A DNA stretch of 64,000 bases. Source: Haloflavibacter putidus (GTDB taxonomy: Bacteria; Bacteroidota; Bacteroidia; Flavobacteriales; Flavobacteriaceae). Shown here one piece after another: positions 909 to 52,251 of this stretch. The notes below the pieces were generated by a model. The model was not told where the DNA came from. It made no database searches and saw nothing but the letters and a program-made list of their open reading frames with translations. How positions within the stretch are numbered: the stretch's first letter is position 1; every line of letters begins with the position of its first letter. Made by a program: the position numbers and the translations under genes. The stretch is from contig NZ_VIAR01000014.1 of assembly GCF_006546625.1 (NCBI RefSeq), positions 1 to 64,000 on the forward strand, read 5' to 3'.

Positions 909-3890
909 TTAATTCTTTATAAACTTTTTCTGTAAAGTTTTACCAACAGATTTGTTAGTGATGCTGAGGTTGTAAACGCCACTTTGTAAATGCGACAAGT
1001 TTAAGGCTGAGTTAACTTCGGTAAATGAGTTTTCAAAAACCTTTTGTCCAAGCATATTGTATATAACAAAGTTTGTTTCGCCAGTCCAATTTTGTGGCAA
1101 TTGAACATTTAGGCTCTCCGCGTCCGTTAAGGGATTGGGATAGATAGTTAGATTAGTGCTTTCAAAACTATCTGTTGCTAAATTTTCTTCACCAAAAACA
1201 ATAGCAAAACGATCTGGCGCAATGCTGGCGCTTTGCTCATTGTCTACGTTAAATGCTATATGGTTTATACCGTTGTCTAAAACTGTGCTTTCTTCTAAAT
1301 AGTTGTCTTTTAAATAAGCTTGGTAGCCTAAGTTTCCGTTTACTTCTATTACAAAAGTATATGCTTGTTCGCGGTATTGTTCTAAGGTCAATTGCAATAC
1401 TTCTTCGCTTTGCGGTAAGCTTCTGTATTCTAAAGCTAAGGTTTTTCCGTTAAGGCTGCGACCAAGATTTTCGTCTAAATTGAAAATCTTTTCTGCATCT
1501 CGCATTGTTTTATTATTGTCAAAATTTTCGCTAAAATTAATGCGTAAACCATCTGCCGGACTTTCGTTAGCATCAAAAGCTGTTTGGTTATATAGTTTAA
1601 GGTTGATAAACGAATGCATTTGACTACGCATAGTTGTTGTAGGGACTGCAGCTGTGTTTTTATAATTTTCCGTAAAGTTTAAAACGGGAGCGCCTCCAGC
1701 TGCCGTAGTTTGGAAAAAGGCCGATTGCATTGGTTGTAAAAACTGATTTGCATCACTACCAACGGGATTTGTAGACGCATCGCTTAAATCTATGGTTACA
1801 TAAGCGCCACGATCACTGATAGTTGGATCCCAAATTGTGTAATGATTTGTATTTACATTGGTGCTGTTGGCCATTACCTGGGTCATATCTACCGCTGCGT
1901 GATACGGATTACTAAACAAGTTATAAGCATTTGCTATAGCGTTAAAGTTGGTATAGGTCTGGTTGCCTTGCAAAATGCTTCCTTTTGCGCGCAATTTTGT
2001 GTTAGAAGGCGCAGCAGCGTTGCTGGTAATATCGGTACTTCTATCGCCACGAATCATTAATAAATACGGTGTTGTTACAGCAAGTTGGTTATTTTCGGTA
2101 TCGGTAATGGTTATCCACTCTTGGTTTAGGTTATCAAACCTAAACATAGAAGGGTTTCCGGAAGGAGTCAGATCCAATCCGTTTGTTTGGTCTGCAGTTG
2201 TGCCCGTGATATGTGTTCCGTAACCCGGATTTGGATTATCGTTCCAAGCGTTTGCTCCTTCTTGCCAAGCATCATGAATGCTGGTAGAAGTGTTTACAGA
2301 AGAATTTACCAATCTAAATGCTCTTTGGGCAGGGAAACATTGTTCTGTAGTAACATCTCCGTTTATCGTGCCGCCAATTGGGGCTATTTGCGCAGTTTTT
2401 GCAGGACTTCCAAAATTGCAACGCATATAAATTTTTCCTGCAGTATTTAGCGTGCCGTTAGTAACATTCAGTACGTTGGTAACATTAATAGTTTCGTTAA
2501 GTGCTGCATCTATGGTAAGTCCGTTCGAATTGGAGAGAATTAGGTCTCTAATCTCAAAACCGTTACCAGTTATATTCTGCGCTTGACTGCTAGAAGCAAA
2601 GTCTAATTTATTGATTGGGTCCGGAAAATTACCTTCATTAATAAAATCGCCAGTTATAGTAAGTTGGTAGTTATTGGATAAGTCTACATAAGCATTTGGT
2701 TGAACCACCAAATCACGAATAGAAAAATTAGTTGATAAAACCGGAAAATTAGGTGCATCTGACACTATTAAAATATTTGCAGAACCATTTCCCGGTGGAA
2801 CATCAGGACACCAATTAGCAGCATTAGAGGTGTTAGAGCTTACTTCCCCAGTCCAAATATAGTCATTAGAACTGCCATATAAATTAGTAAACGCTAAGGC
2901 ACCTATAGAATTACCGCCATCTTCTTGAATAGAGAATTCTATAGTAGAATTTGGTCCTAAGTACCCGCGCCAAACATCTGGAGTAGGGGCTCCGCCATCC
3001 CAAGTGTTGTCAGAATATTCTACAACGCCATCTATGGTTAAAGCTACATCATCATCGTAGCGCGGAATGTCTATTTGATAGTATCCGCAAGGAAAACCTT
3101 CTCTTCTGTAAATAAAGGCGTGATTTTCTGAAGTTACGGCGTTTCCATTGTAACCGGGGGCATCGGAAGGGGCGTTGGTAGAGCCCCAAGTTATATTGGT
3201 ATTAAAATCTAAAGTGTTTTCTGTATAATAACCAGCATACTGGTTAAAATTTCTGTCGGAAAAAACAGCTACGTGCCAAAGATCGCTTCCAAATACTTCA
3301 GGATCCGGAGCCGTTTGTGTCATGTGTATAGCGCCGTAAGACGCTCCCTGTCTTTCCATCCAAACCATTTCTACTTCATCGGTTGGTTGCAATTGGCCGG
3401 TCCACGCATTATTATGTACATCACAGCAGCTGGTATGGCTCCAAACTACGGTACCATTTACTAGTAATCTAGCGGAATCGTCGTGACCGTCTGCTCCGTT
3501 TCTTCCTCGTATATTAAATGTATACGAACCACTTGCAAAACCTTTACGACGGTAAGAAACCATGTGAAAATCATCGGTTACAGCGCAACCTTGATAGGCG
3601 GCATTACTGCTTGCGCTTGGACTATTAGTTGTGCCCCAGTAGTCACGAGAATCAAAATTATTGTTTCCAGAACCGTAGCCCGCATCTATATAGTACCCGC
3701 GGTAGGTGCTATAATCAAAATTGTTGGCATTGTAAGTGTTTAGGTTGTAGACATAAGCGGTCCATTGTCCATCAATAAACTCGCCTTCTGTAGGATGCGA
3801 TGAACCTGTTGGAATGCAAGCTTGTGCGTAACTAAAAGAGATGGAGAAAATACTAAGTATTACTAAATAGAATGTTCTTTTTAAAATCAT
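909..3890 (-). CDS. Giant secreted T9SS type A substrate with two beta-sandwich-like repeats
   Basis: This 993-residue protein has an N-terminal signal peptide (about 1-22, ending SYAQA). Two related repeats at about 24-195 and 200-340 share a GYY...WG...P...Y.G.AVT...H...R..GF..G.Y pattern and look like PA14/jelly-roll sandwiches, but I cannot name the family. A WTGEVSS...NWCPDVPP segment follows, a motif common in Bacteroidota surface proteins. The half beginning near TTEQCFPAQRAFR is shared with the two other giants here. The last ~81 residues (YPNPL, then MLGQKVFE and SGVYNLSI) form a type A T9SS sorting domain, so the protein is exported by T9SS to the surface or medium. The ligand is unknown. 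Its start is 105 nt past the preceding mini-gene, a wider gap than elsewhere in the array. Confidence 0.85.
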   Translation of the reverse strand: MILKRTFYLVILSIFSISFSYAQACIPTGSSHPTEGEFIDGQWTAYVYNLNTYNANNFDYSTYRGYYIDAGYGSGNNNFDSRDYWGTTNSPSASSNAAYQGCAVTDDFHMVSYRRKGFASGSYTFNIRGRNGADGHDDSARLLVNGTVVWSHTSCCDVHNNAWTGQLQPTDEVEMVWMERQGASYGAIHMTQTAPDPEVFGSDLWHVAVFSDRNFNQYAGYYTENTLDFNTNITWGSTNAPSDAPGYNGNAVTSENHAFIYRREGFPCGYYQIDIPRYDDDVALTIDGVVEYSDNTWDGGAPTPDVWRGYLGPNSTIEFSIQEDGGNSIGALAFTNLYGSSNDYIWTGEVSSNTSNAANWCPDVPPGNGSANILIVSDAPNFPVLSTNFSIRDLVVQPNAYVDLSNNYQLTITGDFINEGNFPDPINKLDFASSSQAQNITGNGFEIRDLILSNSNGLTIDAALNETINVTNVLNVTNGTLNTAGKIYMRCNFGSPAKTAQIAPIGGTINGDVTTEQCFPAQRAFRLVNSSVNTSTSIHDAWQEGANAWNDNPNPGYGTHITGTTADQTNGLDLTPSGNPSMFRFDNLNQEWITITDTENNQLAVTTPYLLMIRGDRSTDITSNAAAPSNTKLRAKGSILQGNQTYTNFNAIANAYNLFSNPYHAAVDMTQVMANSTNVNTNHYTIWDPTISDRGAYVTIDLSDASTNPVGSDANQFLQPMQSAFFQTTAAGGAPVLNFTENYKNTAAVPTTTMRSQMHSFINLKLYNQTAFDANESPADGLRINFSENFDNNKTMRDAEKIFNLDENLGRSLNGKTLALEYRSLPQSEEVLQLTLEQYREQAYTFVIEVNGNLGYQAYLKDNYLEESTVLDNGINHIAFNVDNEQSASIAPDRFAIVFGEENLATDSFESTNLTIYPNPLTDAESLNVQLPQNWTGETNFVIYNMLGQKVFENSFTEVNSALNLSHLQSGVYNLSITNKSVGKTLQKKFIKN

Positions 3891-3995: not shown

Positions 3996-4190
3996 TTATC
4001 GGCGTAGCTTCTTATATCCTAAAGCTGTTCCTGCAACTAAACCGGCAACCAATAAACCATCAATAGGTACCGTTGGATTTTCATCGTCTACATCGTCTGG
4101 AAAACCAATTTGTGCATAGGCATTTGAAATAAACAAAAGACCAAAAACCACTAAGCCTGTCGAGATTATATTTTTAAAAGATTTTTTCAC
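3996..4190 (-). CDS. Mini secreted protein with PID-type C-terminal sorting tail (copy 2)
   Basis: This 64-residue product is almost nothing but targeting signals: a signal peptide ending NAYAQ (about 1-27), an acidic linker (DDVDDENP), then PIDGLL, a short hydrophobic Gly/Ala-rich helix and a basic end YKKLRR. That motif-helix-basic order is the plan of PEP-CTERM-like exosortase signals, and I know this variant as a PID-CTERM tail. The gene starts 11 nt after the stop of the 1550-residue T9SS protein, so the two are surely co-transcribed. It closely resembles the 67-residue protein at 8896-9099, at the DNA level as well. If an exosortase cleaves before the helix, only about 20 residues would be released. 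The function is unknown, and the link to the exosortase at 51267 is inference. Confidence 0.8.
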   Translation of the reverse strand: MKKSFKNIISTGLVVFGLLFISNAYAQIGFPDDVDDENPTVPIDGLLVAGLVAGTALGYKKLRR

Positions 4191-4201
4191 GTTAAAAATG
4201 A

Positions 4202-7200
4202 TTAAGGTTTGATAATTTTTAATGTTTCTTGTATGCCTTCTTCTTTGTTTTTCAGTATCAAATAATATAAACCGCTTGGAAAGTCTAAGTTTCTAACGTG
4301 CAACTTGCCGTTTTGATTAGCAGGTTGCTGTATTAAAACTTGCTGTCCTAAAACATTATAAATAGTTATTTGATAAGAGGTGTTGCTTTGCGTTCCTACT
4401 TCAATAAATAATTGGTTATCTTGAATAGGGTTTGGATAATAGCTAAGCACCCGTTGCTCTATAGTATCTGTATTTAAATTGTCGTCTCCAAAACGTAGAC
4501 TAAATCTGTCTAAAGCACCACTGGAAGAAGAACTTGGATCTACTGTAAAGCTAAGTGTGTTTTCTGCATTCTCTAATAAAGTAGAGGTGCCAAGATAATT
4601 GTCTTCCAAATAAACTTCTTTTTCTATGTTAGAAATATTGATTTGAATTATATACGAATTGGTTCGGTATTGACTAATCTGTAAAGGCAATATTTCTCCA
4701 ACTTCCGGAAGTTGACGTTTTTCTATACTAAGTAAATTACCGGTTTCGTTACGGGATAAATTTTCATCTTGGTTAAATAATTTAGGTGCATCTTGAAAAT
4801 CTACAGCATTGGTGTAATTTTCAGAAAAGTTTACTTTCAATCTGTCTGAATAAGAAGCGCCATTGGTAAAGGCTTCTTCTGTAAAGAGATAAAGTCGAAT
4901 ATTTTTATTAGTAACATCGGTAATAGCAGAATTAGATCGGAATACATCACTTCCTGCTTCGTCTGTATTCTTATAGTCTTCTTGAAACTTTATTACGGGT
5001 TGAACATTTTGGTTACCGGTAACAAAAAATGCGGCTTGCATAGGTTGTAAAAAACGGTTTGCTTCTGTTGTTCCCTGCGTACCATTAGGTAGTATTTCCG
5101 TAGATAAATTGTCTACATCTATTGCTACATAAGCGCCACGTCCTCCAGGTTGACCTGGTGTTGGCGTTCCGCCTAAAGTAGGATCAAAAATATAAAAATA
5201 CCTTCCTGCATTAGTAGTTGCCGGGTCGTTTAGAACTTCAAGCATATCTACAGCAGCCGGATATGGATTGCCAAAAGCATTAAAATCTCCTTCTACATTG
5301 CTAAAGCCTGTATTAAAAGTCTGGTCGCCACTAAGAATAGTACCGGTAGCTCTAATTTTTGTATTGGTTGGGGTAGCAGCGTTAGAAGTTACGTCTATAG
5401 CTCTGCTACCGCGTACCATAAGTAAATAGGGCTCGGCAGCTTGCAAGCTGTTAGTTAGCGTGTTGTTAACTGCATCCCATTGTTGGGTGCTATTATCAAA
5501 ACGGAATAAAGAAGGGTTGCCGCTTGGAGTAGCATCAAAACCGTTGTTTCCATTTATTGAACCGGTAATGTGGGTGCCGTAACCATTGTTTGGATTAAGA
5601 TTATCTGTAGGTTGTACCCCAGTGTTGTGCACACCTTCCTGCCAATTTGTGTTTATACTGGTACTAGTTGTAACCGGGGACGCGAGCAATCTAAAAGCTC
5701 TTCTGGCAGGGAAGCATTGCTCTGTAGTTACTTTTCCGTTGATGGTTCCGTTAGATAAATTGGCTATTTGAGCCATTTCCTGCACAGGTCCTGTAAAATC
5801 GCATTGTAAAGTAAGGTTGTCGTTCGTGTTCAAAACACCGCCTTGGTTTACCTCTACCAACTTTTGGACATAAAAAGTTTCTTGGGTAGCCAGATTTATA
5901 TTTGCGCCCGCAGGATTGGAAATAATAAAGTTGCCAACATTCATTGTATTTCCTGTAAGTTGCTGTGCGCTATCACCAGATAGGCTTAAAATACCATCGC
6001 TTGCATTAAATATTCCTTGATTATTTAAATCGTCACTTAAATTTAAGTTTACGTTAGCATCTAGAGTCAATTCAGCACTGTTTACAATAGTAACACACTT
6101 TACGGAAGCATCATTTTCTAACAAAGCAGGCAAACCGTTGTTAATTACTAGTTTTCGTTGTGCATCTTCTATTCCCGGAGCACCATTTGAACCGGTACCA
6201 TATAAAAACTGACTACCATCCCAGGTTATGGGTTGTAAATTATTTATTCTAAAGGTAAAATAGTCTCCGTTGCTAAAATTAACGTTACTAAAACTAACAG
6301 TTTCACAAGCATTGGTAACTGAAGAAATTACGGTTGGCGAGGTGAAATTTTCATTATCATCAATCAATAATTCTATGTCTGTATATGCATTGTTTGGAAT
6401 GTTAAGAGAAGATAGCGCGAGCTCCAAATCAAGCGAGCCAAGATTTCCTATCTTGCCTACACGCCAAATAGCATTTAGTTTTAGATTATCTTCCGCTGTT
6501 GCATTACAGTTTAGATCATTTAAATTTAACTTACTATATTCTTTGGTATTAGAGACGATAAAAAGGTATTTTCCTGTGCTAAAATTACTTGGATTTGATA
6601 ATCTTACAATACCAGTACCAAATTGCGAATCTGTTTTGTTGGTTAATTCTAAACCGGCAATTACAGCTACTAAATCGTGGTCAAAATTTCCTGCTGCAGT
6701 AGTATTAAATATATTAATGTATGCGGTAGTTAAATTAATATCGTACTTAGATGCTAAGTAGTTTTGGAGCAATAATATTTCTTCAGAATTTAAAGCGTAA
6801 TCATGAATGATAAACTCTGCCATTTTTCCGTCAAAATAATTATTGCTGGCGCTGCTTCCATTTAGAATTATACTGTCTGGGTTGCCGCCAATATTTATGT
6901 TACCAGAATGTGCATATAACAATCCCACACCAGAAACGCTACCAATGGTATCGCCGTTTAGATACATCGTAAAATCGCCATCTGTTGCGGAAGTTCCGTT
7001 GTACGTAAAGGTTAGTACATAACGTTCATTGGGTACAATAGGGGCAGAAATTTGCTTATTGTTCCAATTGTCTCCGGCTCCATCTGAATTTGGTATATTA
7101 TAGCCACCAACGTATAAATTATTGTTTTCTATAAATACGTGTAAATTCCTTTGGTTTCCTCCCTCTTCGTATAAAACTTGTGTAGTTGCTACATCTAAAG

Positions 7201-8854
7201 AAGTTTCGAAAGCTACGCTAAAGCTGCGTTGGGAAAAAGGCCCACCAACGTTTAGGTTTATATTATTTGGAATCTCTAAATTATCGTCTATTCCATCAAA
7301 CTGTATAGCAGGATAGGTGTTGAATTGGTTTTCTAAAAATAAAGGTTGTCTTGAAGTCGAAGTTTGGTTTGCATTATTTGGGTCGTCACCTTCATTTTCC
7401 CAGTTGGCTACATTGCTGTTGTTAGCAAGATTTGAATTCTCTGCTCGCCACCAAAATTTTGTATTAGATAGTGTGCTAAGTCCTGCGGGTAGTTCTCTGC
7501 TAATTGGTGTAGCCGATGGCAGTAAAAACTTAATATAGTTGCCATCTGCAACGTTTACGTTATCAAAAGTTATTGTACTTCCGTTTACGCTACTAACGTT
7601 AAAAAGAGTTGTAGAACCGGTTGTAAAATTACTAGTAGAAGATACTTCTAGTTGAACATCATCAAAGGGTGTGTTGCTGTAATTAAAACTGTCTATATCG
7701 AGTCTAAAGGTTGTATTGTTAAAAGAACCGTTTTTAGAAACCCGCCAAGTAGATTCTGTACGGTACAAATTGGTTGCGTTACTACTGCATCCTACAGGAG
7801 CAGGAGATAGGTTTGTATTAGAAAGTTGATTACTAGCTATAATTAAGAAATTGCCATCGTTTAGGGTGTTGTTCTGTATTGCGACAATGCCGGTTCCTAT
7901 AGAAGAAGTTAAATAAGAATCTAAATTATCATTACGACCTATTCCTACAGAATGAAAATCAAAATCACCTTCCGTAGCTGTATCATAAGAATTACGATCG
8001 CTTCCCGCGGATATTGCTACGGCATATTTGGAAGATAAATAGTTTTCTAAAGTAATTCGCTCAGAAACATTTAAAGCCTTGGCATAAACTGCCATCTCGG
8101 AAATTAAGCCGGTAAAATGAAACTTTTCACTGCCACTATTATTACCATCGTGATAATAACTATCAGCAACCTGTGCCCCAATCACCGCATTATTATGATT
8201 ATATAATTGCCCAATGTTATTTGCACTTCCTATAGCAACTCCGTTTACAAACGCAGATAATGTACCTGTTTTTGCAGCGTTTCCGTCAAATCTAAAAACG
8301 AGAATATAATTGGTGTTTGTTGTTATACTTGTAGAAGCAGAAACATATCCCCACGGGCTATCACTACCATCACTATTTTGTAAGTTATAACCGCCAAAAT
8401 ATAGCATGCCGTTATCTATATAGATATTTAGACCACGTATACTTCCTCCCTCTTCGTAAACAACCTGTCTAGTATTTATATCTCCCCCGGTTGTTATAGC
8501 TAGAGCAAAAGTTCGTTTTGAAAATGGCCCGCCATCGTTTAAAAGTCCGGAATCCCCAATTTCTAAATAATCGTTTCCACCGAAAGCTATTGCAGGCAAA
8601 GCGTTTACTTGACTATCTAAGAAAACGGGTCTTTTACCAGCAGTGTTTTGAGTAGCATTTAAGATGCTACCGCCAATATTTGTCCAAGAATTTATAGCAG
8701 TATTATTGCTAGCAGATGCTAATTGGTCTGCAGCAAACCAAAAAGGGTTATTAGCACTAGTGCCAACCCCGCCAGGACCTTCTTGTGCGCTAAGGTGCGC
8801 GCTAAAAGAAGTAAAAATAAGTAATAGAATTGGTAGAAAAGTAGTTTTTTTCAT
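4202..8854 (-). CDS. Giant secreted T9SS type A substrate with two LamG-like domains
   Basis: This 1550-residue protein has a signal peptide (about 1-23, SAHLSAQ). Two concanavalin/LamG-like modules lie at about 30-280 and 455-705. Each runs FWxxAxx...W.N.G, then PA(I)xFxGxDxLEI, RxFxxAxxT, VLYEEGG and YFDGKMAEFIIHD-type strands, followed by a SDRNSYDTATEGDFD or comparable linker. Such modules usually bind glycans. The following half (TTEQCFPARRAFRL...GYGTHITGS...PSGNPSLFRFDN) is nearly the same as in the 1072-residue neighbour. The final ~80 residues (YPNPIQDNQLFIEV, LGQQVL, SGLYYLIL) are the type A sorting domain. It lies between the two mini PID genes and is probably in one operon with them, since only 41 nt separate it from the upstream mini-gene. 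The substrate is unknown; adhesion or polysaccharide binding is a guess. Confidence 0.87.
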   Translation of the reverse strand: MKKTTFLPILLLIFTSFSAHLSAQEGPGGVGTSANNPFWFAADQLASASNNTAINSWTNIGGSILNATQNTAGKRPVFLDSQVNALPAIAFGGNDYLEIGDSGLLNDGGPFSKRTFALAITTGGDINTRQVVYEEGGSIRGLNIYIDNGMLYFGGYNLQNSDGSDSPWGYVSASTSITTNTNYILVFRFDGNAAKTGTLSAFVNGVAIGSANNIGQLYNHNNAVIGAQVADSYYHDGNNSGSEKFHFTGLISEMAVYAKALNVSERITLENYLSSKYAVAISAGSDRNSYDTATEGDFDFHSVGIGRNDNLDSYLTSSIGTGIVAIQNNTLNDGNFLIIASNQLSNTNLSPAPVGCSSNATNLYRTESTWRVSKNGSFNNTTFRLDIDSFNYSNTPFDDVQLEVSSTSNFTTGSTTLFNVSSVNGSTITFDNVNVADGNYIKFLLPSATPISRELPAGLSTLSNTKFWWRAENSNLANNSNVANWENEGDDPNNANQTSTSRQPLFLENQFNTYPAIQFDGIDDNLEIPNNINLNVGGPFSQRSFSVAFETSLDVATTQVLYEEGGNQRNLHVFIENNNLYVGGYNIPNSDGAGDNWNNKQISAPIVPNERYVLTFTYNGTSATDGDFTMYLNGDTIGSVSGVGLLYAHSGNINIGGNPDSIILNGSSASNNYFDGKMAEFIIHDYALNSEEILLLQNYLASKYDINLTTAYINIFNTTAAGNFDHDLVAVIAGLELTNKTDSQFGTGIVRLSNPSNFSTGKYLFIVSNTKEYSKLNLNDLNCNATAEDNLKLNAIWRVGKIGNLGSLDLELALSSLNIPNNAYTDIELLIDDNENFTSPTVISSVTNACETVSFSNVNFSNGDYFTFRINNLQPITWDGSQFLYGTGSNGAPGIEDAQRKLVINNGLPALLENDASVKCVTIVNSAELTLDANVNLNLSDDLNNQGIFNASDGILSLSGDSAQQLTGNTMNVGNFIISNPAGANINLATQETFYVQKLVEVNQGGVLNTNDNLTLQCDFTGPVQEMAQIANLSNGTINGKVTTEQCFPARRAFRLLASPVTTSTSINTNWQEGVHNTGVQPTDNLNPNNGYGTHITGSINGNNGFDATPSGNPSLFRFDNSTQQWDAVNNTLTNSLQAAEPYLLMVRGSRAIDVTSNAATPTNTKIRATGTILSGDQTFNTGFSNVEGDFNAFGNPYPAAVDMLEVLNDPATTNAGRYFYIFDPTLGGTPTPGQPGGRGAYVAIDVDNLSTEILPNGTQGTTEANRFLQPMQAAFFVTGNQNVQPVIKFQEDYKNTDEAGSDVFRSNSAITDVTNKNIRLYLFTEEAFTNGASYSDRLKVNFSENYTNAVDFQDAPKLFNQDENLSRNETGNLLSIEKRQLPEVGEILPLQISQYRTNSYIIQINISNIEKEVYLEDNYLGTSTLLENAENTLSFTVDPSSSSSGALDRFSLRFGDDNLNTDTIEQRVLSYYPNPIQDNQLFIEVGTQSNTSYQITIYNVLGQQVLIQQPANQNGKLHVRNLDFPSGLYYLILKNKEEGIQETLKIIKP

Positions 8855-8895
8855 GCAGATAGATGCTTTTGGAATTATATAAATACCTAGAATTC

Positions 8896-9099
8896 TTATT
8901 TCTTTAATTTTTTATAACCTAAGGCTGTTCCGGCAACTAAACCGGCCAGCAATAAACTGTCAATGGGAGCTGCAGGATTTTCGTCATCTACATCGTCATT
9001 TCCTCCGGGGAAGCCAGGTTGCGCGTAAGCATTAGAGATAAACAAAAGGCCAAAAACCACTAAGGCTGTCGAGATTGTATTTTTAAAAGATCTTTTCAC
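8896..9099 (-). CDS. Mini secreted protein with PID-type C-terminal sorting tail (copy 1)
   Basis: This 67-residue paralogue of the 3996-4190 product has a signal peptide ending NAYAQ, a Gly/Asp linker (PGGNDDVDDENP), PIDSLL, a hydrophobic LLAGLVAGTALGY stretch and a KKLKK end. It begins 11 nt after the stop of the 1072-residue T9SS protein, exactly the spacing seen for the other copy. The two mini-genes also share long runs of identical DNA through their signal peptides and into the 3' ends of the giants before them, which points to duplication of a [giant 3' end + mini-gene] unit. Both keep intact frames and all tail elements, so both are probably expressed. No function can be assigned from sequence. 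Confidence 0.8.
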   Translation of the reverse strand: MKRSFKNTISTALVVFGLLFISNAYAQPGFPGGNDDVDDENPAAPIDSLLLAGLVAGTALGYKKLKK

Positions 9100-9110
9100 G
9101 TTAAATATAT

Positions 9111-12100
9111 TTAAGGTTTTATAATTTTTATAGTTTCTTGGGTTTTGGTAGTAGCATTGTGCAATACTAAATAATAGATACCGCTAGGGAAGTCTAAGCC
9201 GTTAACCTGCAATTTCCCATTTTGAGATTCAAGCGTCTTGGCTAGCACCGTTTGGCCTAGTACATTGTATATTTTTACGGAATAATTAGTATCTGCTTGT
9301 CTTCCCAATTCAATAAAAAGCTGGTTATTTTTGATTGGATTAGGATAATAAGAGCGTATAGTCTTTTCAAGATTATCAGTTGCCAAATCGTTGTTTGTAA
9401 AACGCAAGCTAAAACGGTCTGTAGCTGTGCTTAATGCATTACCGTCTACTTGAAAACTAATGCTGTTACCACCGGCATTTAATAAAGTAGTGCTTTCTAA
9501 ATAATTGTCTTCCAAATATACCGGTATATCTAGATTGGAAACGTTAATATGTAGTACATAGTTTTCGTTGCGATATTGGTTAATGTCTAAAGCCAAAACT
9601 TCACCTTCTGTTGGGAGGAAACGTTTTTCCATTCCTAGTAAAATGCCATTTTCTGCGCGAGAAAGATTTTCATCTAAATTAGATAATTTTGGCGCGTCTT
9701 TATACGTAATGGCATTATCAAAATTAGAAGAAAAATTAATCTTTAAACGATCAGAATAAGAATATCCGTTATCGAAAGCTTCTTCCGTAAAGAGGTATAA
9801 TTGAATATTTTTAGCTATGGAAGTTGTATTAGTAGTTTCTGAACGAAACACTGAAGTTCCAGCTTGATTGACGTTTTTATAACTTTCTTTAAATTGTATT
9901 GCCGGTTGTATATTCTGATTGGCCGTTACAAAAAATGCAGCTTGCATAGGTTGTAAAAACCGATTTGCTTCTGATGTTCCACCAGTGCCATTTGGTAGTA
10001 TTTCGGTAGATAAATCGTCTACATCTATTATCACATAAGCACCACGGCCACCAGGTTCACCTACGGTTGGATTTCCACCTAAAGTAGGATCGTAAATATA
10101 AAAGTGTCTTCCCGCGTTTTTGGTGTTTGGGTCGTTTAATACCTTGCGCATATCTACTGCTGCAGCATACGGATTTCCAAATGCATTAAAATCTCCTTGT
10201 GTAACGCTAAAATTGGAAGTAAAGGCTTTATCACCTTGCACAATTGTTCCTTTTGCTCTTATTTTTGTATTGGTTGGTGCAGCAGCGTTAGAAGTCACAT
10301 TTATAGCCCGGCTTCCTCTTACCATTAACAAATACGGTTCCCCTGCAGTTAATGTATTAGCAAGCGTATTGGTAATCGCTGTCCAATTTTGTGTAGGGTT
10401 ATCAAATTGAAATAAAGAAGGATTTCCGCTTGGTGTGGCGTCCAAACCGTTATTGCCGGTAGTAGAGCCCGTTATATGCGTGCCGTAGCCATTATTTGGG
10501 TTTTGGAAATCACTATCTGTTGTGCCGGTATTATTAGAGCCTTCTTGCCAGTTTGCATTGATGCTGGTAGTAGTTGTTACCGGAGAACTTACCATTCTGA
10601 ATGCCCGTCTAGCGGGAAAACATTGCTCGGTTGTAATTTTACCTGAAACAACACCGGTAACTGGCGCTACTTGTCCCATTGTTAGGGTAGCAAAATCACA
10701 GGTTAACGTAATTTGATCATTGGTAGACAATGTACCTTCTTTTACTTGAAGTACTTCGCTTATTTTTAAAGCTTGTAAAACATCTAATCCAAAAGAGTTT
10801 TCCAGCGTTAAATTAGCTAATTCGCCGTTAGCAATTAGATTATTCTGAATAGTTTGCGTGGCAATGCCGGTAAAATATAAAGTAGAACCGGGAGCATCTC
10901 CAAAAATTTGCGCGCCGCCATTGGGGTTGAAACTTATGTCGCCGCTAATGTTAAATAAAAAACCATTTAAATCTAAGCTGCTGCCAATTTGTAAAGTAAA
11001 ATTTTTAGCTCCGGTGTTAGAATTTAACTGAGGGTAATTGGTTGCGCCGGTAGGAATGATAACATCAAAGTTCGCATTGGGTACTTCGTTATTAGACCAA
11101 TTTCCAGGCTTGTCCCAATCGGTATCAATATTACCTGTCCAGACTGCAGAAGTACAATTGGGACCAGTAATTGTTGTCGTAATTGCTGGTTCTAAGCTAG
11201 TACTTTCAAAAATTATTTTATGGTCACCGCCAACTTCAAAACTTAAATCATCAAAAACAACTTGTCCATTGGAGTCGGTTTGTTTTGTAGTTGTGCCAAG
11301 TAAAACTCCGGCACCTGTATAAATAGATGCGCTAACACTATAACCGCTTTGCTGAATTGCAAAACCATTAAAATCTTGCAGTTCTAAAGAAATATTCGAA
11401 TTTAAAACGCCATTACAGTCGGCATTGCTAGCAGAACTTAGAATTTCTAATTTACTGGCTACGCTAATTGCTTCTTCATTATAGGCTAAAAAAGCTGGAT
11501 CAGATGTCCCGCCTGAGGTATATACTATAGCTGCCGCGTTTTGATAGTTTGTATTGGTAATGCCCATTGTAGATAATTCTGCTGCAAAAAACCTAATATT
11601 TCTACTCGTGTTATGAAGCCCGGAATTAGTTTGGGTACTGTTAAAATTATAATAGTCTGCAGTCCAAGACGCAAGCGGCGGATTTGCAGAAGTATTCATC
11701 TGAATGGTTATTTCGTTACCGACCGTATTTCCAGAGCCGTCTACGAATTTAATTTTATCTATATTATTACCGGAAGGAGTAGCAATATTAGAAATTACGA
11801 TATCTGGCGTTCCGTCTCCAATTTTACTTTGCGTAATGCCGTTAGAACTTAATTGAAAAGTAGAAGTCGTACCTGGATCTATATTGGCTATTCCGGTACC
11901 CAGATCTAAACCTCTTGGGCCGTCTGTAAGAAAATATGCAGCTTCTGAACCATCTGTAATTGCAGGAAACGGATTTTGATTACCATTATCCACACCGTTG
12001 TCTATACCATCATAAATCTGACCTAAACCTATGTAGGCGCTGGAAGAATTGATGTTTGCCAATTCTGCCAGAGGTAAAGCCCGGTAATTTTCAGCAATAA

Positions 12101-12329
12101 AACTAACGCCTTGATTGGTTAAAATAGCATCGTTAACGCCCGTGGAATATGTATTTCCGTTGTATTCAAAACCTAATAAATGATGTGAATTTATCGGTTT
12201 TACTGAATTGATGTTGCCTTGAAAGGAAGACCAGTAGCCTTGATAATCTGTGTAAATTCCGGTTACCTGAGCTTTAAGCCCAATACAAGTGAAAATCGAT
12301 AAAAGAATTAATACATAGTATTTTTTCAT
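9111..12329 (-). CDS. Giant secreted T9SS type A substrate (1072 aa), first gene of the array
   Basis: The signal peptide (about 1-21, CIGLKAQ) is followed by a ~270-residue N-terminal region I do not recognise. Next come an Ig/Big-like strand-rich module (about 290-390, ending TITGPNCTSAVWTG) and a WDKPGNWSNNEVPN segment typical of Bacteroidota repeat proteins. The TTEQCFPARRAFRM half shared with the two giants downstream follows. The last ~80 residues (YPNPIKNNQLFIEL, LGQTVL, SGIYYLVL) form the type A T9SS sorting domain. A promoter lies about 40 nt upstream and no terminator is seen before 909, so this gene probably heads a five-gene transcript. The different N-termini on a common C-terminal half suggest one display scaffold carrying different heads. 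Confidence 0.87.
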   Translation of the reverse strand: MKKYYVLILLSIFTCIGLKAQVTGIYTDYQGYWSSFQGNINSVKPINSHHLLGFEYNGNTYSTGVNDAILTNQGVSFIAENYRALPLAELANINSSSAYIGLGQIYDGIDNGVDNGNQNPFPAITDGSEAAYFLTDGPRGLDLGTGIANIDPGTTSTFQLSSNGITQSKIGDGTPDIVISNIATPSGNNIDKIKFVDGSGNTVGNEITIQMNTSANPPLASWTADYYNFNSTQTNSGLHNTSRNIRFFAAELSTMGITNTNYQNAAAIVYTSGGTSDPAFLAYNEEAISVASKLEILSSASNADCNGVLNSNISLELQDFNGFAIQQSGYSVSASIYTGAGVLLGTTTKQTDSNGQVVFDDLSFEVGGDHKIIFESTSLEPAITTTITGPNCTSAVWTGNIDTDWDKPGNWSNNEVPNANFDVIIPTGATNYPQLNSNTGAKNFTLQIGSSLDLNGFLFNISGDISFNPNGGAQIFGDAPGSTLYFTGIATQTIQNNLIANGELANLTLENSFGLDVLQALKISEVLQVKEGTLSTNDQITLTCDFATLTMGQVAPVTGVVSGKITTEQCFPARRAFRMVSSPVTTTTSINANWQEGSNNTGTTDSDFQNPNNGYGTHITGSTTGNNGLDATPSGNPSLFQFDNPTQNWTAITNTLANTLTAGEPYLLMVRGSRAINVTSNAAAPTNTKIRAKGTIVQGDKAFTSNFSVTQGDFNAFGNPYAAAVDMRKVLNDPNTKNAGRHFYIYDPTLGGNPTVGEPGGRGAYVIIDVDDLSTEILPNGTGGTSEANRFLQPMQAAFFVTANQNIQPAIQFKESYKNVNQAGTSVFRSETTNTTSIAKNIQLYLFTEEAFDNGYSYSDRLKINFSSNFDNAITYKDAPKLSNLDENLSRAENGILLGMEKRFLPTEGEVLALDINQYRNENYVLHINVSNLDIPVYLEDNYLESTTLLNAGGNSISFQVDGNALSTATDRFSLRFTNNDLATDNLEKTIRSYYPNPIKNNQLFIELGRQADTNYSVKIYNVLGQTVLAKTLESQNGKLQVNGLDFPSGIYYLVLHNATTKTQETIKIIKP

Positions 12330-51261: not shown

Positions 51262-51269
51262 TATTTTTG
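51262..51269 (+). promoter_or_regulatory. -7 element overlapping the xrtF TTG start
   Basis: TATTTTTG is a full -7 match. Its last bases are the TTG that is the only plausible start codon of xrtF, so either the box or the start assignment is wrong, or translation begins at a rare codon such as ATT (51276). Confidence 0.4.
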
Positions 51270-51821
51270 CAGGAAATTTTTAGAAAAAATAAAGCGGTAA
51301 TAAAGTTTTTGGTCTTGTTTTTTGGCAGCTATTTGTTGTTGGCTTTTTTATATGATTTTTATTTAGAATACGGTCAATCTGCCGTTTATTACCCAGATTA
51401 TGTAACGCATTTGGTAAGTTTACAAAGCGAAAAAGTGGTAGAGTTATTTGGGTATACTTCGCGGGTTTTACCGCATCCCAACGAAGCTTCTATGAAATTA
51501 TATGTAAACGACACCTATTTGGCCCGAATAGTAGAGGGTTGCAATGCCATTAGTGTCTTAATACTTTTTGTAGCGTTTATTATAGCCTTCCACTCAAAGT
51601 GGAAACCTACTATTTTATATGCTTTGGCGGGTTGTGTACTTTTATATGCGTTTAATATTTTGCGCATTGCTTTACTGAGTATTGGTTTGTATGAATATCC
51701 AGAATCTAAAGATTTACTACACGATATTTTATTTCCGGCGGTTATTTATGGCTCGGTTTTTATTTTATGGGTAATTTGGGTGCGTTGGGTTACTGCTTCA
51801 AAACCTAAAAAAAATGCATAA
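51267..51821 (+). CDS. xrtF: Exosortase family protein XrtF
   Basis: A 184-residue polytopic membrane cysteine protease/transpeptidase with the exosortase triad: Cys92 in RIVEGCNAISV, Arg133 in AFNILRIALL and His152 in LLHDILFPAVIYG. Exosortases cut C-terminal signals (motif, helix, basic end) of exported proteins in the inner membrane. XrtF is the flavobacterial class. Candidate substrates in this window are the two PID-tailed mini-proteins. The start is TTG, preceded by an in-frame stop at 51252. The next gene overlaps by 8 nt. Confidence 0.9.
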   Translation: MQEIFRKNKAVIKFLVLFFGSYLLLAFLYDFYLEYGQSAVYYPDYVTHLVSLQSEKVVELFGYTSRVLPHPNEASMKLYVNDTYLARIVEGCNAISVLILFVAFIIAFHSKWKPTILYALAGCVLLYAFNILRIALLSIGLYEYPESKDLLHDILFPAVIYGSVFILWVIWVRWVTASKPKKNA

Positions 51822-52251
51822 ATTTTTAAAAATAGCTCTAATAGGTTTGCTGTTTGTTTGTTTGGCGGGTATTCGTTTTTTTGAGAGTAGTTTGTTTTAC
51901 GACCCTTTAATTGCTTTTTATAAAGATAATTATTTGCAAATGGCGCCACCAAAATTAGAAGTTGGTCGTCTCTTGCTTTCTACCGGTTTACGTTTCTTAC
52001 TTAACAGTTTTGTGTCTTTGGTTATTTTGTATATTGCTTTTCAGCAGAAAAATGTGCTTAAAATAAGCGGAATTATCTATTTGTTAGTGCTCGTAATATT
52101 ACTGCCGGTTTTTTATTATTTGTTGATAAATATGCAGCCCGATAATTATTTTACGTTGTTTTATGTGCGTAGATTTTTGATACAGCCGGTTTTAATATTG
52201 GTATTATTGCCAGCTTTTTATTACCAAGAGTATATAAAAAAAACCGACTAA
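51814..52251 (+). CDS. Exosortase F-associated membrane protein
   Basis: This 145-residue protein has about four hydrophobic helices and begins with a short Lys-rich end. XrtF is usually followed by a small membrane protein of this kind, and the 8-nt overlap and tandem order fit. Recognisable features are FESSLFYDPLIAFYK and a C-terminal DNYFTLFYVRRFLIQPVL. Its role (chaperone or partner of the protease) is unknown. Confidence 0.82.
   Translation: MHKFLKIALIGLLFVCLAGIRFFESSLFYDPLIAFYKDNYLQMAPPKLEVGRLLLSTGLRFLLNSFVSLVILYIAFQQKNVLKISGIIYLLVLVILLPVFYYLLINMQPDNYFTLFYVRRFLIQPVLILVLLPAFYYQEYIKKTD

Follow-up and report, generated by a model that had tools for sequence, protein, structure and literature searches.

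A stretch of 64,000 nucleotides (nt) from Haloflavibacter putidus, here called the window, carries two genes for very small secreted proteins, each directly behind the gene for a giant cargo of the type IX secretion system (T9SS). We call the small proteins "minis" and, where they end in a tail of the PID-CTERM type, "PID minis". Comparisons across the phylum Bacteroidota show that T9SS cargos with a common domain ahead of the secretion tail (the pre-tail domain) and predicted PID minis form a conserved gene pair, usually with the cargo first, in bacteria with exosortases of the XrtF or XrtX type. That the pairing is real and widespread we regard as very nearly certain. A T9SS tail is encoded directly upstream of the mini, on the same strand and within 500 nt, at 115 of 152 PID loci and in 10 of 12 families; on the opposite strand a T9SS tail was found at a single one of the 152. 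A preliminary description of this DNA had proposed that short PID-tailed genes directly follow T9SS substrates, and most loci in the sample are arranged in this way.

Cargo-mini gene pairs in the window and across the phylum

The two pairs, followed by a third giant, are listed with coordinates, strand and the best evidence for each, lengths being in amino acids (aa).

3996..4190, minus strand: PID-tailed mini-protein 1, 64 aa, GTG start; NF046080, 27.4 bits
3999..4070, minus strand: PID-CTERM sorting signal in mini 1; E 3.4e-6 in a genome-wide search
4202..8854, minus strand: T9SS type A giant, 1550 aa, with two LamG-like stretches, partner of mini 1; TIGR04183, 43.5 bits
4208..4438, minus strand: T9SS C-terminal tail of the 1550-aa giant; profile match
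4460..5647, minus strand: pre-tail domain of the 1550-aa giant; E 7.7e-73 with model A3, which includes this sequence
8896..9099, minus strand: PID-tailed mini-protein 2, 67 aa, GTG start; NF046080, 19.7 bits
8899..8970, minus strand: PID-CTERM-like sorting tail of mini 2; E 8.6e-4
9111..12329, minus strand: T9SS type A giant, 1072 aa, partner of mini 2; TIGR04183, 43.2 bits
9117..9347, minus strand: T9SS C-terminal tail of the 1072-aa giant; profile match and structural match to solved T9SS tails
9369..10499, minus strand: pre-tail domain of the 1072-aa giant; E 5.8e-75 with model A3, which includes this sequence, and structure models
909..3890, minus strand: third T9SS giant, of 993 aa, sharing the pre-tail domain (1167-2318); above the TIGR04183 cut-off

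Two secreted minis of 64 and 67 aa with PID tails are present as first described, and both begin 11 nt past the stop of a large open reading frame (ORF). Mini 1 consists of a signal peptide at about residues 1-26 (by eye), a short acidic linker and the PID tail, which includes a helix and ends in RR. Its tail scores above the NF046080 cut-off of 26 bits and that of mini 2 scores below it; both tails contain PID and lack a PEP motif, which places them outside classical PEP-CTERM. All three giants exceed the TIGR04183 cut-off (23 bits). The ends of the two paired giants are 67% identical, and on sequence the two pairs look like copies of one another. The 11-nt gap that they share is therefore an effect of duplication. 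Elsewhere the gap between cargo and mini ranges from -29 to 389 nt, with a median of 77, so that the "fixed" spacing of the preliminary description does not hold generally; the variable gap rules out a fixed 11-nt coupling between cargo and mini.

No mini was seen behind the third giant despite its pre-tail domain. An ORF that by eye resembles a transposase fragment (110-505) lies just beyond this giant, and its mini may therefore have been lost there. Terminator-like hairpins were not found behind either window mini, and promoter and terminator scans of the window and of one further locus (L002) gave counts no higher than in shuffles.

T9SS tails across the phylum were called with a profile built on 30 TIGR04183 matches, which superseded an earlier regular-expression rule (108 of 152 loci). 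The 152 loci comprise 150 of the 178 matches at E <= 0.01 together with two at E 0.012 and 0.016; outside this set stand six loci examined separately, four of them with a T9SS tail, four loci near contig ends and 18 weaker ones outside the family of the window. Tandem minis behind one cargo were counted twice, and 111 of the 115 cargos are distinct over their last 100 residues. One locus counted as a miss (L048) probably encodes no PID protein. A downstream control within 1.5 kb found a T9SS tail at 3 of the 152 loci. This control underestimates, as a flank of roughly 1.5 kb is frequently too short to reach the end of a long gene, and the opposite-strand count given above is the fairer one. 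By family, the paired fraction was 73/82 in f24, 7/8 in f9, 7/8 in f51, 9/13 in f22, 4/4 in f43, 3/6 in f4, 9/19 in f1, 1/3 in f44, 1/6 in f36 and 1/1 in f3, with none at the single loci of f7 and f8.

Of 111 pairs, 34 have a terminator-like hairpin in the 150 nt that follow the mini and 4 have one between the two genes; 111 control pieces had none. In part, the mini is predicted to stand at the end of an operon. At L289 (G127:C13:56500-63000) the order seems to be inverted, with a PID mini, by coordinates, just upstream of a domain cargo. An unusually large carrier was seen at L322 (G166:C1:2167132-2167203), where a PID-like tail ends a frame of about 995 aa and the available stretch shows no upstream T9SS tail.

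The pre-tail domain of the partner cargos

The partner cargos share a domain of about 390 residues ahead of the T9SS tail. Their heads are diverse (LamG, LTD, RCC1, Ig-like, subtilase and propeller), while Pfam Por_Secre_tail was present in all 15 paired cargos scanned. The last 480 residues can be aligned, with G-N-P-[FY] near position -350 and W-R..S.P near -460; counted with regular expressions, GNP[FYW] occurs in 101 and GWR..SPV in 33 of the 115 paired cargos. A hold-out profile of the domain, trained on 65 paired cargos from families f24, f51 and f43, recovered 26 of 31 paired cargos of other families. Applied to 30 comparison cargos, which were high-scoring tails from six genomes and not a random sample, the profile matched four, three of which precede a PID-like mini; behind the 26 unmatched cargos no PID-like mini was detected by pattern and eye. 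As far as sequence comparison can tell, the pairing appears to be confined mainly to cargos with the pre-tail domain. A search with alignment A3, which includes sequences from the window and from its own genome, found the domain in 9 of 12 genomes, and it was absent by this search from the XrtF-less relatives G134, G182 and G198.

The pre-tail regions of the two paired window giants had no match in Pfam at 0.001 or in NCBIfam at 1. The end of the 1072-aa giant was modelled with a predicted local distance difference test (pLDDT) of 83, and the T9SS tail of the model (residues 418-500) aligned with 8glk_D over 75 residues (Z 10.8, root-mean-square deviation 1.9). Modelled alone, the pre-tail part reached a pLDDT of 80 and a predicted template-modelling score of 0.83. 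A fold search with it gave no clear match (best Z 3.6), which is no proof of a new fold.

The 2.9-Mb H. putidus genome has 37 T9SS tails, and the A3 search found seven strong copies of the pre-tail domain and one weak match. Four PID-CTERM matches at E <= 0.01 are all located 11-12 nt behind a T9SS type A tail, and all four adjoin strong copies of the domain; four out of four among 7 of 37 has a chance of 35 in 66,045, a figure to be read with the fact that two of these pairs are near-copies. A fifth mini has API-G instead of PID, and its gene shares 1 nt with the stop of a further domain cargo. It was found because the domain search pointed to its cargo, and it is not among the NF046080 matches even at E <= 10. 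A sixth, proline-rich (Pro-rich) mini lies between genes named by eye as methylmalonyl-CoA epimerase and riboflavin synthase/pdxA, and has no T9SS partner. NF046080 thus overlooks some XrtF-type tails, namely those of the fifth and sixth minis.

Within single genomes, near-identical minis repeat behind different cargos. This suggests a generic peptide, whose most probable partner is the domain that the cargos share. The same repetition, together with the wide differences among cargo heads, would also suit a duplicating cassette in which pre-tail domain, T9SS tail and mini spread as a unit, adjacency reflecting descent and shared expression with no physical partnership. Such a cassette does not readily account for the retention of the mini although cargo ends outside the family of the window are mostly 12-31% identical to those of the window when aligned, nor for genome G088, which lacks both an exosortase match and minis and yet retains eight remote matches to the domain. 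We consider the cassette quite improbable.

Exosortases, Pro-rich minis and Fjoh_0651

The window itself encodes an exosortase, as the preliminary description had stated, and a second gene of the same system follows it.

51267..51821, plus strand: exosortase XrtF, 184 aa; TIGR04128, 238.7 bits (cut-off 90)
51814..52251, plus strand: exosortase F system-associated membrane protein, 145 aa; TIGR04127, 156.1 bits (cut-off 35)

In a sample of 395 genomes of the phylum, NF046080 matches at E <= 0.01 occur in 73 and XrtF- or XrtX-type matches at E <= 1e-5 in 115; XrtF exceeds its family cut-off in 43 genomes and XrtX in 45. An exosortase match accompanies 71 of the 73 PID genomes, against 44 of the 322 others (Fisher p 8e-45, uncorrected for kinship), and PID-tailed genes in this sample therefore keep the company of an exosortase, as had been anticipated. 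The PID matches of the two remaining genomes, G035 and G152, are marginal (E > 0.005), as are those of some of the 71. Within the family of the window, PID matches were found in 14 of 31 genomes with XrtF and in none of 10 without it (p 0.009).

PID minis lie less than 1 kb from an exosortase gene in six genomes (G115, G273, G072, G045, G033 and G317). A series of four in G115 runs from the cargo through the mini and the exosortase to a membrane ORF, with a 24-nt gap followed by overlaps among the last three. That exosortase exceeds the general model TIGR04178; it narrowly misses the XrtF cut-off and also falls short of that for XrtX. At this locus (L069:602-1598) the exosortase gene shares sequence with its neighbours on both sides, the mini and the membrane ORF. 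The latter, of 132 aa, has no NCBIfam match and is perhaps the counterpart of the exosortase F associated protein.

At L327 (G127) and L328 (G054), a DegT-type aminotransferase gene precedes xrtX, which overlaps its stop. Genes for a sugar dehydrogenase, an oxidoreductase and an acetyltransferase lie ahead of xrtX at L327, in an order reminiscent of the Wbp pathway, by which Porphyromonas makes its T9SS linking sugar. None of the sugar genes at L327 and L328 is called Wbp by family models. Sugar-nucleotide genes beside xrtX were rejected as a general feature and serve as a lead at most: they were seen at these two loci, and the neighbours differ at L329. The oxidoreductase was matched in 5 of 12 genomes, and on the same contig as xrtX only in G127.

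Minis of the Pro-rich class were searched for with an alignment (A1) of seven of them. Genome G526 we take to be Flavobacterium johnsoniae UW101, and therefore genus g2 to be Flavobacterium and the family of the window Flavobacteriaceae. A1 matches occur in 253 of 299 genomes of this genus. In 28 further genomes, A1 matched 13 of 18 with XrtF (four of the 13 being rows of A1) and 1 of 10 without. The match in the XrtF-less genome, G130, lies inside a 1469-aa frame (E 0.0066) and was taken as chance. Likely orthologues stand beside riboflavin synthase and pdxA (by eye) in the genome of the window and in G367, G118, G226, G103 and G029; the mini of G355 (L307) is located elsewhere. At L156 and L162, Flavobacterium Pro-rich minis are followed downstream by a T9SS cargo of about 430 aa. 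In family f2, a Pro-rich match is present in four of eight genomes with XrtF. At L309-L312 of this family a cargo precedes the mini; it measures about 480 residues or more, being truncated where the locus ends, and it exceeds the TIGR04183 cut-off in three of the four. A conserved gene, thioredoxin-like by eye, comes next after the mini. The claim that PID-tailed minis have a T9SS partner thus stands for 115 of the 152 PID loci and does not stand as a general rule, since the Pro-rich minis of Flavobacterium are mostly alone.

The Pro-rich mini of G526 (710501-710743, minus strand; 80 aa, with GLPIN in the tail) is almost certainly Fjoh_0651, because the length of the porZ ORF, an ORF count and the size of a published fragment agree. 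A 760-aa ORF at 778668-780950 is exactly 2283 bp long, as is the published porZ (Fjoh_0707) insert. A mechanical count from porZ to the mini gave 61 ORF steps, five of them doubtful by eye, against 56 expected for Fjoh_0651; the count is approximate, as at least one of the five may be a real gene. The mini is also the only nearby ORF that by eye looks both hypothetical and short enough for the 434-bp fragment, promoter included, with which Fjoh_0651 was complemented (PMC10936215). Passages of the same paper report that deletions of Fjoh_0651, xrtF, fjoh_1449, porU or porZ prevent the formation of zorbs and strongly reduce biofilm, and that deletion of the sugar gene fjoh_0334 has the same phenotype. 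They leave the substrates of XrtF, expected to be unlike PEP-CTERM, to future research (2024), and in its passages on exosortases no connection is drawn between these enzymes and Fjoh_0651. A stand-alone relative of the paired peptides thus appears to be a gene that a laboratory Flavobacterium is known to need for its biofilm.

The phenotype of fjoh_0334 also enters an account in which minis act on the matrix, the processed peptides joining or helping to make a polysaccharide and the giants being co-expressed, matrix-binding adhesins. Exosortases are tied to exopolysaccharide in other bacteria (passages of PMC7468200), and the position of xrtX directly behind a sugar aminotransferase-type gene in two genomes is in keeping with this. 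The oxidoreductase counts given above indicate that the sugar-gene linkage is not general, however, and an action on the matrix leaves unexplained why it is mainly cargos with one domain that are paired. We think this account unlikely.

A possible role at the cell envelope

The reading that we prefer has mini and cargo both reaching the periplasm via Sec, with the tail keeping the mini in the inner membrane. The exosortase would cleave near P-I-D/N/G and move a short acidic or Pro-rich peptide onto an envelope acceptor, probably a lipid or glycan; cleavage near the motif and transfer to an acceptor would follow the example of known exosortases. Once displayed, the peptide would bind the pre-tail domain of the cargo translated from the shared message, or become linked to it, thereby keeping or positioning this cargo on the cell surface or within the matrix. 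In Flavobacteriaceae, a stand-alone Pro-rich mini, which in F. johnsoniae would be Fjoh_0651, would supply this peptide in constitutive form. That an exosortase-attached peptide tethers or guides the T9SS cargo at the envelope is put forward as a tentative interpretation. The preliminary description had suggested that the peptide could mark, anchor or help to sort the giant; the functional evidence on such a role is indirect and comes from the published mutants of F. johnsoniae. A little more tentative still is the fuller proposal of a display by two machines, in which the peptide on its acceptor would be the receptor or tether for giants with the pre-tail domain and Fjoh_0651 the first genetically supported XrtF substrate, its loss explaining the biofilm defect of xrtF mutants. 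The gene pairs suggest that two separate protein-sorting machines cooperate.

Several observations weigh against tethering by an exosortase-attached peptide. T9SS functions in bacteria that have no exosortase. A T9SS neighbour is lacking at 37 of the 152 PID loci, and among 33 loci of the Pro-rich Flavobacterium class a T9SS tail stands upstream at none and downstream at two. F. johnsoniae has remote domain cargos, with no mini behind those inspected, and the mutant phenotype of Fjoh_0651 is unspecific because deletion of fjoh_0334 produces it too. Two of the seven strong domain copies in the H. putidus genome, the giant at 909-3890 and a copy near the end of contig C13, have no mini that we could find. 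Furthermore, the hold-out profile missed 5 of the 31 cargos (those of G115 C1, G231 and G355 C7, the window giant at 4202-8854 and the C50 cargo of its own genome), including three of the nine paired cargos of the window's own family; it takes a model built with such sequences to recognise the missed cargos.

The adjacency on one strand and the class of cargos would be explained equally well if the mini were a chaperone, a membrane-held assembly factor that persists in the inner membrane or turns over slowly there, passes the pre-tail domain from Sec to T9SS and is released or recycled by the exosortase, with no part as a surface tether. The mature linker of the mini is short, which such a factor could accommodate, but the near-constant presence of an exosortase match with the mini (71 of 73 genomes) suggests that processing is the point, and Fjoh_0651 is not adjacent to a T9SS tail. 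An assembly factor is in our judgement improbable.

The tether reading builds on known parts. The mini tails are the PID-CTERM sorting signal (NF046080) or close to it, a family numbered next to exosortase X (NF046081); to its name and scores the present analysis adds the T9SS pairing, the pre-tail domain and the Pro-rich class. Both genes of the exosortase F system (TIGR04128 and TIGR04127; Fjoh_1448 and Fjoh_1449) lie in the window, and candidate substrates for it are proposed here. With the PEP-CTERM/EpsH system the minis share the plan of signal peptide, short motif, helix and basic end, as outlined in passages of PMC7468200. They differ from it in their PID-type motif, their tiny size and their frequent position behind T9SS cargos. 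The partner giants belong to T9SS type A (TIGR04183), the class with Wbp/Vim sugar attachment (passages of PMC7468200), and differ from ordinary members in having an additional conserved pre-tail domain and an exosortase-type partner peptide. In a limited search of open-licence literature, the passages on exosortases with T9SS, Bacteroidetes or gliding did not describe the pairing, and the term PID-CTERM was not found; the components (mini tail, exosortases, T9SS tail) are all known, and the pairing is new within the literature searched.

The conserved gene pairs tie exosortase sorting to type IX secretion in many families of Bacteroidota, and the pre-tail domain helps to tell which T9SS cargos take part. 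Fjoh_0651 is proposed as a concrete XrtF substrate in F. johnsoniae, whose laboratory strain is genetically tractable and has published deletion mutants.

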